A program made the translations under genes and the position numbers. The notes beneath the pieces are model-generated. The model did not search any database. It worked only from the letters and a program-made list of their open reading frames with translations, and was not told where the DNA came from. From the NCBI RefSeq assembly GCF_030285665.1, contig NZ_CP127295.1, forward strand, positions 62,001 through 126,000: DNA of 64,000 nt, in the 5' to 3' direction. This DNA is from Amycolatopsis mongoliensis. GTDB taxonomy: Bacteria > Actinomycetota > Actinomycetes > Mycobacteriales > Pseudonocardiaceae. Below, piece by piece: positions 22,132-61,776 of the stretch (its first letter is position 1; each line of letters starts with the position of its first letter).

Positions 22132-22228
22132 CCACGTAATACGACGTTGAGCACAGGCGGGAACACCCGCCTCGCGCAGACGGTTGGCTAGGGTGAATCG
22201 ACCGGACCCCAGCCCCGCGGAGGATGCA

Positions 22229-23624
22229 GTGCCCCACTACGACCTGGTGATCGTCGGGACGGGATCGGGGAACTCCATCCTCGGCCCCGATTTCGCCGGC
22301 AAGAAGACGGCGATCGTGGAGAAGGGCACCTTCGGCGGGACCTGCCTGAACGTCGGCTGCATTCCGACGAAGATGTTCGTGTACGCCGCCGACGTCGCGT
22401 ACACGCCTTCGCACAGCGCGAAGTACGGCATCGACGAAGAGCTGAAGGGCGTGCGCTGGCGCGACATCCGCGACCGCATCTTCGGCCGGATCGACCCGAT
22501 CGCCGCGGGTGGCGCGGAGTACCGCCGCAGCCACGAGGACAACAAGAACGTCGACGTCTACGAAGGCACCGGCCGCTTCACCGGGCACAAGGAGCTGCGC
22601 GTCAGCTTCCCCGACGGCCGCCCCGACGAGGTGCTGACGGCCGACAAGTTCGTGCTGGCCGCCGGCGGGCGCCCGGTCATCCCGGACATCCCGGGCCTGG
22701 AGGGTGTCGACTACTCCACGTCCGACACGGTCATGCGGCTCGACGAGCTGCCCGAGCGCATCGTCATCCTCGGCGGCGGGTACATCGCGGCCGAGTTCGC
22801 GCACGTCTTCGCGTCGTTCGGCGTGCAGGTCACGCTCGTCAACCGCTCGGCGAGGCTGCTGCGCGGGGAGGACGAGGACGTCAGCGCGCGTTTCACCGAA
22901 CTGGCGTCGGAACGCTTCGACGTCCGCCTGGAGCGCAAGACCGTGCGCGCCCGCAAGACCGACACCGGCGTCGCGCTGGACCTCGAAGGCCCGCGGGGCG
23001 CCGAGACCGTCGAGGCCGACTTGCTGCTGATCGCCACCGGCCGGAAGCCGAACTCGGACCTGCTCGACGTCGCCGCCACCGGAGTGACCACAATGGACAG
23101 TGGGCACGTCGTCGTGGACGACTACCAGGAGACCGTGGTCGAGGGCATCTACGCGCTCGGCGACCTCTCCTCGCCGCACGAGCTGAAGCACGTCGCGAAC
23201 CACGAAGCCCGGGTGGTGCAGCACAACCTGCTGCACCCGGACGAGCGGATCACCGCCGACCACCGGTTCGTGCCGCACGCGGTGTTCACCCACCCGCAGG
23301 TCGCGTCGGTCGGGCTCACCGAGCAGAAGGCTCGCGAGAAGGGCGTCTCCTGATGTGACGTCCAAGCAGGACTACGCCGGGATCGCGTACGGCTGGGCGA
23401 TGGAGGACACCACGGGCTTCGCGAAGCTCCTGGCCGACCCGGCGACCGGGCAGCTGCTCGGCGCGCACATCATCGGGCCGCAGGCGTCGTCGGTGATCCA
23501 GCCGCTCATCCAGGCGATGAGTTTCGGCCTGAACGCGCACTCGATGGCGCGCGGGCAGTACTGGATCCACCCGGCGATGCCGGAGCTGGTCGAGAACGCC
23601 CTGCTCAACCTGCCGCTGGACTGA
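22229..23624 (+). pseudogene. mtr: Mycothione reductase, split by a single-base insertion
   Basis: An NADPH-dependent disulfide reductase that restores reduced mycothiol. The first 375 codons contain the FAD motif IVGTGSGN, the redox pair in GGTCLNVGC and the NADPH motif ILGGGYIAAEFA. The frame then stops at 23351-23353 (KGVS then TGA). Deleting G at 23352 turns TCC-TGA-TGT into TCC-TAT-GTG and restores [11 protein letters not shown], which continues to LNLPLD with the catalytic His in the YWIHPAMPE block. So one extra base separates two otherwise intact parts. It could be a genuine recent mutation or a sequencing error. GTG at 22229 has GCGGAGGAT upstream. Confidence 0.9.
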
Positions 23625-23631
23625 CGTAGGT

Positions 23632-23682
23632 CCGTGAATGTCGCATTGAGGGACTTGAAGTCCCTCAATGCGACATTCACGG
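23632..23682. repeat. Intergenic palindrome, family A copy 1
   Basis: A perfect inverted repeat with 24-bp arms (23632-23655 and 23659-23682) around TGA. The outer part reads CCGTGAATG and the inner part GAGGGACT. It lies between the convergent mtr and S1 protease genes and could end both transcripts. A second copy with paired changes is at 60490-60540. Confidence 0.9.
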
Positions 23683-23685
23683 CTT

Positions 23686-25491
23686 TCAGAGGGTGATCGA
23701 CCAGGTGTCCAGCGTGCCGGTGTCGCCGGGGCCGTAGTCGGTCACGCGCAGCTGCCACCGGCCGGCCGCCGGGGTCGCCGTCGCCGGCACGGTGAACGTC
23801 CGCGCACCACTCCACGGCGTGCACGTGCTGCCGCCGCTGTACTTGAGCGCGTACGCCTTGCCCTTCGGGTCCAGCAGCGTGATGCCGAGGTCTTCGGCGC
23901 ACGTGTGGCGGATGGTCAGCGAGACGCCGATCGTGGTGGCCGCGCTGCCGGTGAGCGTCGAGGCGATCGGGCTGAACACCTGCTGGTAGTCACGGATGGC
24001 GTAGTCGGTGTCGTCGGTCAGCGTCCGGCCGCCACCACCGGCCTGAGTCCGTGCGGACACCGCCGCGCTCGCGGGTGAAGCGTTCCCGGCAGCGTCCTTC
24101 GCCTTGACCGTGAACGAGTACGCCGTGTCCGGGTTCAGTCCGGTGACCGTGGCGCTGGTCCCCGCGACGCTCGTGGCGAGGGCGGAGCCGTTGTAGACGT
24201 CGTAGCCGGTGACGCCGACGTCGTCGGTCGACGCGTCCCACGCGAGCGAGACGCTGTCCGACGTCGTGCCGGTGGACCGCGGGTTGCCGGGCGCGCTCGG
24301 CGCCGTCGTGTCCCCGGTACCGCCGCTGGTGACCAGGGTGAGCTGCCACTTGTTCAGCGCCTCGATGACCGGCTGGAACATCGACAGGTCACCGTCGCCC
24401 GGGTTCTGGACGCACTGCGCCGGGCCGCCGTCGTGCAGGCCGGTGGCCTTGTCGCCGAGCAGCCACCCGCCGCCCGAATCGCCGCCGAGGGAACACGCGG
24501 TCGTCCAGGTCAGGTCGTCGATGATCAGGCCCCCGCCGTAGTCGACGGACTTGTGCGTGTACTTGACCTCGCCGCACTGCCAGTGCGAGGTGTTGCCGGA
24601 GTGGCACACGCGGTCGCCGACCATCGCCTCGGCGGCGCCGGTGAGCGTGACCGCCGGCTGGCCCCAGGTGTTGACCGACGCCGAAAGGTTCCAGGCCGCC
24701 TCCGTCACCGCGACGACGCCCATGTCGCCTTCGCGGGCGTTGACGCTGTGCGTGCCGCCGACGTTCGACGTGCCGATCCTGTTCTGCTGTCCCGAAGCGC
24801 CGTACGCGGCCTGGTCGCGGTCGTTCGTGCAGTGACCGGCCGTCAGGAAGTGCTTGGCACCGCCGGAATCCGTCGCCGGGAAGCCGACCGAGCAGTTGGA
24901 CTCGCTGCCCGGCCACCACGGGTTGCCGGTCTGGATCGTCCCCGACTGCTGCCGCGGCGACGTGGACGTCTCGGTGATCCGGACGCCGAGATCCTTGACG
25001 CGGGAAAGGAAACTGTCCGTCTCCGCGGTCTTCTTCGTCCGGTCGACGTTCACGCCGACCTCGTTGCCGCGGACGTCGACACCCCAGCCGTAGACGCCGG
25101 GGACGCCCTTGCCGACCAGCGCGCGGACGGCCGCGTCGGTGCGGTCCAGGTCGGCCTGGCTGCGGGCGACGACCCGGGCCGCGGCACCGGCCGCCCTGGC
25201 CTGGCCGGCGGCGCTCGACGAGGTGACGGCGACGGTCAGCTTCCCGGTCGTGGCGTCGAACCACTGCCCGGCCGACTGCTGCCGCACCGAAGCGGGCAGG
25301 GCGGCGGCCAGCCGGTGGGCGTCGTCCTGGGCGGTGAGCTGGGCGCGCGCCTGGTCCGCGGTGAGCCCGAAGGCGGCGGCCACGCCCGCCACCTCGGCGT
25401 CCGGGTGGGCCGGTGCCGCTTCGGCGGGCGCCAGGCCCAAGCCGAGCGCGGCCAAGGCGGCCACCCCCGTGACGGAAACGAATCTGCGCAT
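23686..25491 (-). CDS. Secreted S1 serine protease with prodomain, FN3 and P domains
   Basis: 601 residues. Signal peptide (1-26), then an alpha-lytic-protease-type prodomain to about 190 that should fold the enzyme and be cleaved. The chymotrypsin-fold domain has His220 (LTAGHC), Asp256 (EGDMGVV) and Ser339 (GGDSGGG), the streptogrisin pattern. A fibronectin type III module spans ~398-482. A proprotein-convertase P domain spans ~490-601 (DLGITLLDPKG, WQLRVTDYGPGDTG), probably for substrate or cell-wall binding. The gene starts 79 bp downstream of a TTAACAGTTAA palindrome shared with the neighbouring XRE regulator gene, pointing to control by that regulator. Confidence 0.93.
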   Translation of the reverse strand: MRRFVSVTGVAALAALGLGLAPAEAAPAHPDAEVAGVAAAFGLTADQARAQLTAQDDAHRLAAALPASVRQQSAGQWFDATTGKLTVAVTSSSAAGQARAAGAAARVVARSQADLDRTDAAVRALVGKGVPGVYGWGVDVRGNEVGVNVDRTKKTAETDSFLSRVKDLGVRITETSTSPRQQSGTIQTGNPWWPGSESNCSVGFPATDSGGAKHFLTAGHCTNDRDQAAYGASGQQNRIGTSNVGGTHSVNAREGDMGVVAVTEAAWNLSASVNTWGQPAVTLTGAAEAMVGDRVCHSGNTSHWQCGEVKYTHKSVDYGGGLIIDDLTWTTACSLGGDSGGGWLLGDKATGLHDGGPAQCVQNPGDGDLSMFQPVIEALNKWQLTLVTSGGTGDTTAPSAPGNPRSTGTTSDSVSLAWDASTDDVGVTGYDVYNGSALATSVAGTSATVTGLNPDTAYSFTVKAKDAAGNASPASAAVSARTQAGGGGRTLTDDTDYAIRDYQQVFSPIASTLTGSAATTIGVSLTIRHTCAEDLGITLLDPKGKAYALKYSGGSTCTPWSGARTFTVPATATPAAGRWQLRVTDYGPGDTGTLDTWSITL

Positions 25492-28481: not shown

Positions 28482-28675
28482 GCCCCCAATGTGGCCTTGG
28501 GTACGTCCCACGCACCCAAGGGGCCCTCCGGTGCGTTGAACGCACCGAAGGCCACATTGGGGCGCTTGCCCGGCCCCGGCTCGCTTGCGCCCCAATGCCA
28601 CATTGGGTGCGTCCCACGCACCGAACGCCACATTGGGTGCGTCCCACGCACCCAATGCCACATTGGGGCGCTTGC
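28482..28675. repeat. Compound palindromic repeat block, family C
   Basis: The 306-bp gap between the GntR and RHH genes holds two compound elements. In the first, CCCCAATGTGGCCTT (28484-28498) pairs with its exact complement at 28548-28562, enclosing two hairpins: GGGTACGT/ACGCACCC (28499-28517) and CGGTGCGT/ACGCACCG (28529-28547). In the second (28587-28671), GCGCCCCAATG faces CATTGGGGCGC around repeated TTGGGTGCGT-CCC-ACGCACC units. No gene is seen inside. A relative lies at 45531-45615. Confidence 0.85.
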
Positions 28676-31979: not shown

Positions 31980-32025
31980 CTCGTGAGTGTTTAGGGCGGT
32001 TAGAACCGCCCTAAACACTCACGAG
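31980..32025. repeat. Intergenic palindrome, family B copy 1
   Basis: Perfect inverted repeat with 22-bp arms (31980-32001 and 32004-32025) around AG. The arm is CTCGTGAGTG-TTTA-GGGCGGTT. It lies between the convergent exporter operon and map. The second copy at 37482 has ATCA in place of TTTA, with the matching change on the other arm. Confidence 0.9.
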
Positions 32026-37481: not shown

Positions 37482-37531
37482 CGGTCGTGAGTGATCAGGG
37501 CGGTTCTAACCGCCCTGATCACTCACGACCG
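37482..37531. repeat. Intergenic palindrome, family B copy 2
   Basis: Perfect inverted repeat with 24-bp arms (37482-37505 and 37508-37531) around CT. The arm carries CGTGAGTG-ATCA-GGGCGGTT. Compared with the copy at 31980, TTTA/TAAA has become ATCA/TGAT on both arms. It lies between the convergent small helical protein gene and ispG. Confidence 0.9.
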
Positions 37532-45415: not shown

Positions 45416-45530
45416 CCAACTGGGCGATCCCCCTGCGAGAGCATGATCACACTCGCTTGACTGTCCTTTGTGGACCCTTTACTCGAACGGCCGGGGAGTG
45501 TGACGGCAGGGGCTCCTCGGCGGCCTGCCA

Positions 45531-45615
45531 GCGCCCCAATGTGGCCTTCGGTGCGTCTCACGCACCGAAGGCGGCCTTGGGTGCGTGAGACGCAACCAAG
45601 GCCGCCTTGGGGCGC
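45531..45615. repeat. Compound palindromic repeat, family C second locus
   Basis: GCGCCCCAA (45531-45539) closes with TTGGGGCGC (45607-45615). Inside are two hairpins: GCCTTCGGTGCGT facing its complement around CTC (45544-45572), and GGCCTTGGGTGCGT facing a one-mismatch complement around GAG (45573-45603). Same design and words as the block at 28482-28675. The remaining sequence to 45746 shows no gene. Confidence 0.85.
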
Positions 45616-45746
45616 TTGCGGTCTGGGGAAGTTCGCAGCGGGTGTGGACAACTCGGCCGCACGCGTCAGGGACTGTCGGTGCCTGCCGGTAACGGTGAAA
45701 TCGGGGGTCCCCCTCACGGCCGGGCGGAGTCGGCGGCGGTCGGGTG

Positions 45747-59208: not shown

Positions 59209-59802
59209 ATGCCCCGCCCCCGCGTCCACGACCTCGACGCGCTGCTCGACGTCGCCGAGCGGCTGGTCGCGTCGTCCGGCGAGGTCACCGTGCGTGGCCT
59301 GGCCGCGGCCGCGGGCGTGCCGAACGGGACGATCTACCACGCTTTCGGCTCGCTCAGCGCGCTGCTGGCGCAGGTCTGGCTGCGCGCGGCGACCGCGTTC
59401 CTCGACCTGCAGACCTCACGGGTGGACGCCGCTTCCTCCCCGGTGGACGCCGTCGTCGCGGCGGCCGACACGCCCGCGGTGTTCGCCTCCCTGCGTCCCG
59501 ACGGGGCGCGGATGCTGCTGAAGGTGCGGGGCGATCGGCTGTTCGGGCCCGAGCTGCCCGACGAGCTGGCGGACGCCCTGCACGCGCTGGACAAGCGCCT
59601 GGTCGCGCTGCTCGTGCGGCTCGCGCGCGGGCTGTGGGACCGCGGCGACGGCCTGGCCGTCGAGGTGATCACCACCTGCGTCGTCGACCTGCCGACCGCG
59701 TTCTTCCGGCGGGACATCACCGATCCCCTGGTGCGGGAGAGGCTCGCCGCCGCCGTGCGGGCCGTGCTGACCGTGCCCCCTCGAGAGAAGGACCGACCGT
59801 GA
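59209..59802 (+). CDS. TetR-family transcriptional regulator
   Basis: 197 residues. The N-terminal HTH reads VTVRGLAAAAGVPNGTIYHAFGSLSALLAQVW. The ligand-binding part (50-197) is helical and less conserved. TACGGT lies exactly 6 nt before the ATG with no ribosome-binding site, so the message is likely leaderless. GAGCACGTGTTC, a 12-bp near-palindrome at about 59182-59193, overlaps the promoter and is a candidate operator for itself. It overlaps the next gene (GTGA), an enoyl-CoA hydratase, so it probably controls that enzyme. Confidence 0.88.
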   Translation: MPRPRVHDLDALLDVAERLVASSGEVTVRGLAAAAGVPNGTIYHAFGSLSALLAQVWLRAATAFLDLQTSRVDAASSPVDAVVAAADTPAVFASLRPDGARMLLKVRGDRLFGPELPDELADALHALDKRLVALLVRLARGLWDRGDGLAVEVITTCVVDLPTAFFRRDITDPLVRERLAAAVRAVLTVPPREKDRP

Positions 59803-60416
59803 CCGTTTTGCACCTGGGCGACGACGAAAACCGCTTCTCGCCGGAGTGGCTGCAGCGCGTCCATTCCACTTTGGACGAAGTGGACGACGTGCTGGTGACC
59901 ACCGGCGGCGGCAAGTTCTACTCGAACGGCCTCGACCTCGAATGGCTGATGGCCAACGGGGACAAGGCTGCCGAGTACGTCGCCGACGTGCAGGAGCTGT
60001 TCGCGCGCGTGCTGACGCTGCCGGTCCCGACGGTCGCGGCGGTCAACGGCCACGCGTTCGGCGCGGGCGCGATGCTGGCGATGGCGCACGACTTCCGCGT
60101 GATGCGCGGCGATCGCGGGTACTTCTGCTTCCCGGAGGCCGACATCAACATCCCGTTCACGCCGGGGATGGCGGCGTTGATCCAGGGCAAGCTGACGCCG
60201 GCTTCGGCGATCGCGTCGATGACGACGGGACGCCGGTTCGGCGGCGCGGACGCGTTGTCTTTCGGGCTGGTGGACGAGATCGCGGCCGAGGACGAGGTCG
60301 TGAAGGTGGCTTCGGAGCGGGTCCGCGCCCTGGCGGGCAAGGACCGCGGCACGCTGGGCGCGATCAAGGCGACGATGTTCGCCCCGGCGGTCACGGCTCT
60401 GCGGACTCCGGCTTAG
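59799..60416 (+). CDS. Enoyl-CoA hydratase/isomerase family protein
   Basis: 205 residues, shorter than the ~255 of typical crotonases, since the C-terminal trimerisation helix region is reduced. Core motifs are GGKFYSNGLDLEWL (oxyanion loop 1) and VNGHAFGAGAMLAMAHDFRVM (oxyanion loop 2). The usual catalytic glutamate pair: one lies in FPEADINIPF, the other is not clear, so it may act as an isomerase or a non-hydratase member. The GTG start overlaps the TetR stop as GTGA, so the pair is co-translated. Confidence 0.85.
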   Translation: MTVLHLGDDENRFSPEWLQRVHSTLDEVDDVLVTTGGGKFYSNGLDLEWLMANGDKAAEYVADVQELFARVLTLPVPTVAAVNGHAFGAGAMLAMAHDFRVMRGDRGYFCFPEADINIPFTPGMAALIQGKLTPASAIASMTTGRRFGGADALSFGLVDEIAAEDEVVKVASERVRALAGKDRGTLGAIKATMFAPAVTALRTPA

Positions 60417-60489: not shown

Positions 60490-60540
60490 CCGTGAATGGC
60501 ACATCGAGGGACTTGAAGTCCCTCGATGTGCCATTCACGG
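60490..60540. repeat. Intergenic palindrome, family A copy 2
   Basis: Perfect inverted repeat with 24-bp arms (60490-60513 and 60517-60540) around TGA. Relative to the copy at 23632, three positions differ and each is matched on the other arm. The right arm contains the TGA stop of the sigma factor gene (60535-60537), so the repeat defines that protein's C-terminus. Confidence 0.9.
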
Positions 60541-61776
60541 CTTTGCGACCTCGGCCAGGCGGCGGCGCAGGTGGGCACGCTCGGGCTCGGTGCCCGCCAG
60601 GGCCAGGGCTTCGCGGTAGGCCTCGGCCGCATCGGTGTGGCGCCCGAGGCGCCTGAGCAGGTCTCCCCGCGCCGCCGGGAACGGGCTGTACTCGCGCAGG
60701 CGGGGTTCGTCCGCCAGGGCGTCGAGCAGCGGGAGGCCCGCCGCCGGGCCGTCGCGCATCGCCACCGCCACCGCGCGGTTCAGCTCCACCACCGGGGACG
60801 GCGCCAGCCCGCGCAGCACGTCGTACAGCCCCACGATCTGCGGCCAGTCCGTGCCCGCCACGTCCGGGGCTTCGTCGTGCAGGGCCGCAATCGCCGCCTG
60901 GACGCCGTACAGCCCCGGCGGCCCGCCCGTCAGCGCGACCTCGACCAGCGCGGTCCCCTCCGAGATCATCGCGCGGTCCCAGCGGCCGCGGTCCTGGTCG
61001 TCGAGCAGCACCAGGTCGCCGTCGGGACCCGTGCGGGCGTCGCGGCGCGCGTGGATCAGCAGCATCAGCGCCAGCAACCCCGCGACCTCCCGCTCCCCCG
61101 GCAGCAGCCGGCGCAGGATCCGGGCCAGCCGGATCGCCTCCTCCGCCAGGTCGAGCCGCTGCAGGTCCGGCCCCGAGCTCGCCGCGTACCCCTCGGTGAA
61201 GATCGAGTAGACGACCTGGAGCACGCCCGGCAGCCGCCCGGGCAGCTCGGCGGCGTCCGGCACCCGGAACGGGATCCGGGCCGTGCGGATCCGGTTCTTC
61301 GCCCGCACGATCCGCTTGCCCATCGTCGCGCTGGGCACCAGGAACGCGCGCGCCACCTCCGGCGTCGTCAGCCCGGCGAGGCAACGCAGGGTCAGCGCCG
61401 TCCGGTCCTCGGCGGGCAGCGCGGGATGGGCGCAGGTGAAGAACAGCTGGAGCCGCTCGTCCGGCAGCTGGCCGTCCGGCGACGGGGCGGGCGCGGCGCG
61501 GTCGGCCTCGACCTGCAGCACCGCGAGCCGGGCCGCGTAGGCCTGGTCGCGGCGCAGCCGGTCGACGGCCTTGCGCCGCGCGGTCGTCATCAGCCAGGCC
61601 CCCGGCTTCGGCGGCACGCCGTCGACGGGCCAGCGCACCAGCGCGGCCTCGATCGCCTCCGACGTCACCTCCTCGGCCAGGTCGAGGTCGCCGAACCGGC
61701 GGACGAGCGCGGCGAGCAGCAACCCGCGCTCCTCCCGGAACACCGCCTGGACCGTGGCTTCCACCCGCCCCGCCAC
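60535..61776 (-). CDS. ECF42-type RNA polymerase sigma factor with C-terminal TPR-like extension
   Basis: 413 residues. Sigma region 2 covers FGDLDLAEEVTSEAIEAALVRW, region 4 LRCLAGLTTPEVARAFLVPSATMGKRIVRAK. A ~230-residue C-terminal extension follows (LQVVYSIFTEGYAAS, LLALMLLIHARRDAR, SPVVELNRAVAVAM, YREALALAGTEPERAHL), which is the ECF42 mark. ECF42 sigmas are nearly always encoded next to a DGPF/YCII-family protein, as here (61782). They lack a classical anti-sigma factor; the extension probably controls activity. GTG at 61776 is the start, and the stop lies within a repeat. Confidence 0.93.
   Translation of the reverse strand: MAGRVEATVQAVFREERGLLLAALVRRFGDLDLAEEVTSEAIEAALVRWPVDGVPPKPGAWLMTTARRKAVDRLRRDQAYAARLAVLQVEADRAAPAPSPDGQLPDERLQLFFTCAHPALPAEDRTALTLRCLAGLTTPEVARAFLVPSATMGKRIVRAKNRIRTARIPFRVPDAAELPGRLPGVLQVVYSIFTEGYAASSGPDLQRLDLAEEAIRLARILRRLLPGEREVAGLLALMLLIHARRDARTGPDGDLVLLDDQDRGRWDRAMISEGTALVEVALTGGPPGLYGVQAAIAALHDEAPDVAGTDWPQIVGLYDVLRGLAPSPVVELNRAVAVAMRDGPAAGLPLLDALADEPRLREYSPFPAARGDLLRRLGRHTDAAEAYREALALAGTEPERAHLRRRLAEVAKP

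Follow-up and report, generated by a model that had tools for sequence, protein, structure and literature searches.

Two palindromes of an Amycolatopsis genome belong to a large family of dispersed repeats, mostly located at gene 3' ends

Two long, perfect palindromes of Amycolatopsis mongoliensis differ from each other within their arms, each difference being matched on the partner arm. Is such pairing kept by selection on the fold or by a copying mechanism, and are these elements anything other than ordinary terminators? The window, i.e. the whole stretch of 64,000 nucleotides analyzed, corresponds to positions 62001-126000 of a 10.81-Mb single-contig genome (G000:C1:62001-126000; the genome is indicated as G000). 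Genes were called by a codon-usage script and are not curated annotations. The features discussed are, in window coordinates:

22184..23624, plus strand: pyridine-nucleotide-disulphide oxidoreductase gene, in two frames (22184-23353, 23355-23624), ending 7 bp before copy 1
23632..23682, no strand assigned: 49-bp-class repeat, family A, copy 1, between two convergent genes
23686..25491, minus strand: protease-like gene (Pro_Al_protease prodomain, fn3, P_proprotein), with its stop 3 bp after copy 1
31980..32025, no strand assigned: 42-bp-class repeat, family B, with convergent genes on either side; the orthologous site of a related genome, G067, is without repeat
37482..37531, no strand assigned: 42-bp-class repeat, family B variant, with convergent genes on either side
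59799..60416, plus strand: enoyl-CoA hydratase-type gene, with the start as given by the gene-calling script; 73 bp separate its end from copy 2
60490..60540, no strand assigned: 49-bp-class repeat, family A, copy 2, containing the TGA stop of the minus-strand sigma-factor gene
60535..61764, minus strand: sigma-70-type factor gene (Sigma70_r2, Sigma70_r4_2, DUF6596), with its stop codon within copy 2

The oxidoreductase gene, presumably mycothione-reductase-like, is split, with an open frame of 400, into 389 aa followed by 89 aa; among the best matches listed, the others have open frames of at least 469 codons.

Both family A palindromes are 51 bp long, with perfect 24-bp arms and a TGA loop (25+1+25, when considered as DNA). 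Positions, arms and loops described in the initial annotation were all borne out on re-check, as were the three arm differences between copy 1 and copy 2 (T/G, G/A, T/C), each compensated on the opposite arm. Simulating the window ten times with an order-1 Markov model yields no perfect hairpin arm longer than 11 bp, versus 25 in the family A copies, for which RNA folds of -45.0 and -47.4 kcal/mol are predicted. Two further perfect palindromes, with CGTGAGTG ends, are present within the window (31980-32025 and 37482-37531); the whole window produced no Rfam match at the gathering score. Tandem or nested palindromes of a different family (CCCAATGTGG...GGTGCGT), recurring elsewhere in the genome, are located at 28484-28671 and 45527-45619.

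The initial annotation stated that finding only these two copies would speak against a structured element. A search by the pattern CGTGARTGN{20,45}CAYTCACG identifies 262 palindromes in G000, while the reversed pattern, used as a control, finds none. Over the genus, at least one copy is found in 76 of 80 genomes (G000 included), with numbers per genome ranging from 0 to 499; the reversed control scores 0 in 78 genomes and 1 in two. Within 1.664 Mb of G000, 62 pattern-defined copies are found: 39 are 42 bp long, 22 are 49 bp and one is 41 bp. The CGTGARTG-type ends are common to several interior families, and a TTAGA/TCTAA-type centre is featured by many copies of the superfamily. In a pattern-free survey of 1.664 Mb, 175 hairpins score 13 or above and 121 score 16 or above, 47 of the latter having CGTGARTG-type ends; G000 also contains unique hairpins and repeated palindromes whose ends are different (families F to I in our labelling). 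Two family A copies, at G000:C1:1515386 and 1516500, lie about 1.1 kb apart, each beside one of two convergent genes, with no gene called between them.

The hosts, among the matches listed, which are a sample, include Amycolatopsis, Kibdelosporangium, Saccharopolyspora, Pseudonocardia, Lentzea, Haloechinothrix, Rhodococcus and Rhodococcoides. The exact 42-bp form is present in 13 of 249 genomes of the order, 8 out of 8 in the genus itself and scattered among the others. Spread within the order is patchy: a genome with 46 copies has a sampled genus mate with 0, and a genome with 16 copies, from another family, also has a mate with 0. The 19 off-clade loci retrieved by the contig scan are chance-like. 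The two palindromes are, in conclusion, copies of a large dispersed palindromic repeat family of Amycolatopsis and its relatives.

Pairing was evaluated on the interior positions, which are not selected by the pattern. In 97 distinct actinobacterial 42-mers, 940 of 1067 interior pairs (88%) are Watson-Crick, versus 65 of 267 (24%) in the 19 off-clade loci; the count covers exact 42-mers, leaving aside L244 and L302, two hits in unassigned actinobacterial MAGs whose interiors are unpaired, and elements that differ in length (Solihabitans, A. regifaucium, A. thailandensis, A. pretoriensis and an Actinomycetes MAG). In a set of 62 named sequences, 93.8% of the cells pair, a value reduced to 32–41% when the pairing is slid, and two-sided changes number 239, versus 80 in shuffles (none of 500 as high). 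The covariation score, 0.485 against 0.124 in shuffles, is also reached by none of 500, and agrees well with the proposal of a structured repeat with covarying pairs. Of the five measures, two are weak: 269 of 500 shuffles reach the observed number of pairs with a two-sided change, and 20 of 500 the observed value for further pair types.

The pattern does not select the base immediately outside it either; this base is invariant in G000 (76/76), in named Amycolatopsis sequences (62/62), in G067 (24/24), in G026, another genome of the genus (30/30), and in Kibdelosporangium (18/18). A different base is found in Pseudonocardia (17/20) and Saccharopolyspora (4/4), while Rhodococcus is mixed (4 and 2 of 6). 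This indicates that conservation of the ends extends past the search pattern, and differs between genera. Such ends, together with a 42-bp length maintained over several genera, would suit a DNA-binding or recombination site, with the conserved ends and centre being read by a dimeric protein and the palindrome acting as DNA rather than as RNA. Binding, however, needs no complementary variable interior, yet the interiors of the 42-mers are largely paired, and placement tracks gene 3' ends, as described below; a role of this kind is regarded as very improbable. One candidate binder of CGTGAGTG, KfrA, was rejected: in the accessible part of the source, the string appears only in primers. DNA-uptake-signal pairs were rejected as well: outside the elements, CGTGAGTG counts 24 versus 50, and CGTGAATG 15 versus 10, in a comparison with one order-2 Markov simulation.

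Localization relative to genes is far from uniform. Of the 62 copies in 1.664 Mb of G000, 39 fall in convergent gaps, 20 in tandem gaps, one in a divergent gap and two inside a gene; convergent gaps thus host 39 of the 60 intergenic copies, though they make up 17.8% of the intergenic bases (binomial p ~9e-16). The 66 copies found in named actinobacterial records behave similarly, with 33 convergent, 16 tandem, 2 divergent and 2 inside genes, 13 being without context. For 50 of 59 copies, no more than 30 bp separate the repeat from the nearest 3' end, the median distance being 4 bp. When all 98 facing 3' ends are considered, 27 are inside the repeat, 20 of which stop at the repeat's own CGTGA, and 20 are more than 30 bp away. 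When gaps of at least 40 bp are considered, a hairpin of any kind scoring 16 or above is found in 58 of the 143 convergent gaps, in 47 of the 461 tandem ones and in 5 of the 265 divergent ones. In tandem copies, scored over 240 pairs only, 212 are Watson-Crick, 7 G-U, 2 A-C and 19 other.

A stable hairpin directly 3' of a stop codon, as found here, is a mark of an intrinsic (rho-independent) terminator. Another, the U-tract, is poorly represented: at least three T in the next 8 nt are found in 5 of 76 flanks of the 42-bp class, which has almost no U-tract, and in 21 of 44 flanks of the 49-bp class, where it is weak and to which the two window copies belong. Structured 3' ends without a U-tract, and bidirectional 3' ends, are described in Streptomyces clavuligerus, also a high-GC actinomycete with strong hairpins at 3' ends; the accessible part of that description, unlike what is found here, does not include a dispersed, inserting family of related sequences (PMC8269248). 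The window palindromes had been proposed to be something other than ordinary terminators; this is not supported, as all four window copies are in convergent gaps, near or overlapping stop codons, where bidirectional terminators sit. The repeats are probably bidirectional terminators, as suggested by their position. Yet, of 86 conserved convergent pairs, 57 have no hairpin scoring 14 or above in either of the two species compared (G000 and G067): the presence of many convergent gaps without such a hairpin indicates that it is not required there.

This localization would also be expected if the repeats were ordinary intrinsic terminators, with stems kept by stepwise compensatory selection and their likeness reflecting common descent from a few terminators. 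Compensated changes are in fact known for ordinary terminators, according to the portion of the literature accessible (PMC5381666), and also occur at the unique hairpins of G000. Related copies numbering in the hundreds and scattered over sites that are not homologous, along with ends and length conserved across genera and a 42-bp class lacking the U-tract, argue against such a reading, which is further strained by copies residing within coding genes and by the replacement of interior blocks on both arms at orthologous sites. It is considered improbable.

The sites of the two window copies were compared among 30 loci each, the own one included; loci L154 and L108 are poorly anchored in this comparison. 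At the site of copy 1, a hairpin scoring 10 or above follows the same gene in 15 of 30 loci and none is found in the other 15. These hairpins fall into several unrelated sequence types, namely family A, A-like, G-like and B-like ones, besides unique types rich in GC. In 7 of the 30 loci compared for copy 2, the sigma gene uses the TGA of the hairpin as its stop; several others feature a degenerate hairpin or none.

A more extended comparison involved G000 and 0.8 Mb of G067, which share 508 conserved neighbouring gene pairs, with a median orthologue protein identity of 94%. A hairpin scoring 14 or above is present in both species for 10 of the convergent pairs, in G000 only for 16 and in G067 only for 3, the remaining 57 having none. 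Seven shared repeat sites are of equal length. In five of them (390622, 414328, 626762, 685029, 703020) the interior of a different family is found on both arms, with the same place and the same ends; family C is present in both species at the other two (231275, 326011). At a further site, 313224, a 49-bp copy in one species corresponds to a 42-bp copy in the other. Over the seven sites, 22 pairs show a two-sided change with Watson-Crick pairing kept, 14 a one-sided change and 4 are changed otherwise, while 100 are unchanged. Ten alignable unique hairpins (167 pairs) show 5 two-sided changes, 1 one-sided and 1 other, and these compensatory changes suggest that selection on pairing acts in G000 too.

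Imperfect copies are also informative; they were scored over ten interior pairs in two samples, 49 of the first 50 listed plus-strand copies, out of 499, for the genome G079, and the first 50 listed plus-strand copies, out of 191, for G026. In G079, 7 copies are perfect, 5 have one mismatch and 37 two or more, the mismatches being adjacent in 29 of the 37; in G026 the corresponding numbers are 28, 3 and 19, with adjacent mismatches in 18 of the 19. When the 19 asymmetric G026 copies are oriented by the central CT, the sets of left and right arms are disjoint, as a site for a DNA-reading protein might predict; three arms of G079, unlike those of G026, are found on both sides, which counts against it. 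In family C, a T-C (or G-A) mismatch recurs at one pair, in 7 of 11 copies of the G000 stretch and in 6 of 12 of the G067 stretch. The recurrent mismatch and the mixed arms fit a copied, asymmetric master better than selection for perfect pairing.

Judging from these comparisons, the arms appear to be modules, replaced in blocks, rather than simply changed in steps. The initial annotation attributed the preserved fold to either selection or copying: the second suggestion gains from the both-arm interior swaps at five of seven sites, while selection on the fold is apparently not the whole story. Uncompensated arm changes, which it had named as evidence to the contrary, are found in part: in 37 of 49 G079 copies, in 13 of 23 family C copies and in the 14 one-sided changes beside the 22 two-sided ones.

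Are new copies generated by insertion? At site 93974, corresponding to the family B repeat of window positions 31980..32025, the two genes of G067 abut, with no repeat between them, which may reflect either a gain in G000 or a loss in G067. An intact polyketide synthase gene of 5275 codons (G000:C1:852949-868773; L059 and neighbours) contains two different palindromes, both in frame. The family C copy, compared in 12 loci taken from a longer list of orthologues, is present in G000 and G067 and missing from the 10 other aligned orthologues, about 21 nt being replaced, in frame. For the family B copy, among 18 orthologues, a similar palindrome is found in G012 and a degenerate one in G022, at the same codons; the remaining orthologues are without a clear palindrome, G056 featuring a look-alike left end. 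Two sites were considered for target-site duplication, that of the PKS gene and 93974, and neither showed one.

Insertions into genes are also found outside the genus. In Lentzea, an acyltransferase-family gene carries an in-frame copy missing from all 41 aligned homologues (41 of 120 listed). In Pseudonocardia, a FAD-binding-subunit gene carries a copy where 12 of 30 aligned homologues (30 of 120 listed) show a gap, many others having variant peptides of the same type. The Pseudonocardia FAD-binding subunits (L261, homologues P0002-P0018) feature a variable, VVSG...HSR-like segment, as if palindromes had successively replaced each other. The four gene-inserted copies and the G012 copy are all read in the same frame, VVS...HSR. 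Copies are shown, by alignment with homologues, to arise by insertion; since homologues lack the in-frame copies, insertion is independent of a terminator function. Insertions into genes are a minority (2 of 62 copies in G000).

These insertions, together with the 0-499 copies found between congeners and the patchy presence in the order, may be seen as an indication for a purely selfish, non-autonomous mobile element, MITE-like, which gathers behind stops as the least harmful location and is useless to the cell. Such an element would, however, be expected to spread through safe gaps rather than hug the stop codon, and pairing is largely retained in orthologous copies; the lack of a target-site duplication at the two sites mentioned might also speak against it. 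A purely selfish nature is therefore rather unlikely.

The search for a mover gave negative results. None of the 80 genomes of the genus gives a match to the RAYT domain (Y1_Tnp, PF01797), for which the control matched in 5 of 14 named genomes, and a RAYT origin was accordingly rejected. The IS91-type Y2 transposase (PF04986) was also found in 0 of 80, in a search that is uninformative, the control being without any match as well. A half-arm scan of 1.66 Mb (15% of the genome) revealed no autonomous parent having these arms as terminal repeats. For family B, 24 out of 24 arms are paired and none is unpaired; for families A, C and D, the rows scored as unpaired read as palindromes missed by the script. 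The family E row at 780369 lies within a nested array of E arms, the F rows are mostly arrays, and the G rows include four weak ones, with 5 mismatches each, of which one is a palindrome.

Among known systems, the closest are REP elements and BIMEs, associated with RAYT, described as short, high-copy, extragenic palindromes, located behind coding regions, mainly in convergent and unidirectional gaps, some being intragenic; the Amycolatopsis repeats resemble them in copy number, in palindromic nature and in location in convergent and tandem gaps, or occasionally within genes, but differ, as far as that source could be consulted, by the absence of a GTAG or CGTC end tag and of PF01797 (PMC3733652). 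Their ends are CGTGARTG/CAYTCACG, followed in Amycolatopsis by A-C or A-G, and neither tag is found among the commonest flank bases. In-frame insertion into protein genes (PKS, Lentzea acyltransferase, Pseudonocardia FAD-binding subunit) recalls the Rickettsia palindromic elements (RPE), which, by the description available, end in CGTC, unlike these repeats, mostly located at gene 3' ends (PMC3733652). The best reading is that of a REP/RPE-like dispersed palindrome without RAYT, scoring negative for both RAYT and tag. A previous description of the CGTGARTG palindrome family was not found in titles and abstracts of the top matches from open-licence literature, and may exist elsewhere; the accessible main text of REP surveys contains no mention of Amycolatopsis or Rhodococcus.

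The explanation that we favour, and hold to be fairly probable, is a dispersed palindrome superfamily, whose copies insert, overwrite one another, and are kept behind stops as putative bidirectional terminators. New copies would arise by insertion, including in-frame insertion into genes. Resident copies would then be rewritten from other copies, or one arm from its partner, through ectopic conversion and hairpin template switching, two processes suggested by the both-arm swaps at orthologous sites, the arms of mixed type and the recurrent asymmetric mismatch. Template switching during replication is described, in the part of the source available, as making and maintaining hairpins by multi-base paired changes in a single event, a likeness to the stem-preserving changes seen here; it is a correction within one hairpin, while the interiors of these repeats also vary from site to site and from species to species, as if they had been passed from copy to copy (PMC8794818). 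It could turn mixed arms into perfect ones, and arm covariation would reflect block replacement more than stepwise compensation. Most copies would be retained right behind stops, mainly in convergent gaps, where the transcribed hairpin would most likely act as a U-poor bidirectional terminator or as a 3'-end guard, in agreement with its position.

Some points count against this explanation: the 42-bp class is almost devoid of U-tracts, hairpin-free convergent gaps exist, no mobile enzyme was found, unique hairpins feature compensated changes as well, two of seven sites carry the same family, and three arms of G079 are present on both sides. RecA-mediated conversion between copies sharing only short ends and a core would also be unusual, which counts against the conversion step. 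A bolder proposal is tentatively advanced, as a possibility somewhat short of even: a RAYT-independent mobile system would write fixed-end 42- and 49-bp hairpins into gene 3' ends and, occasionally, in frame into genes, and exchange the interiors of copies already in place, one arm at a time, rewriting the terminators of a genome in concert.

Compensatory changes are usually considered to prove that an RNA stem is under selection. In the present case, both arms differ in blocks between two related species at the same site, as if rewritten, and such shared sites constitute a natural test of copying versus selection. If the repeats terminate transcription, a mobile repeat would be a source of both stop codons and bidirectional terminators for a whole genus of antibiotic producers and, at times, of new peptide segments within enzymes.
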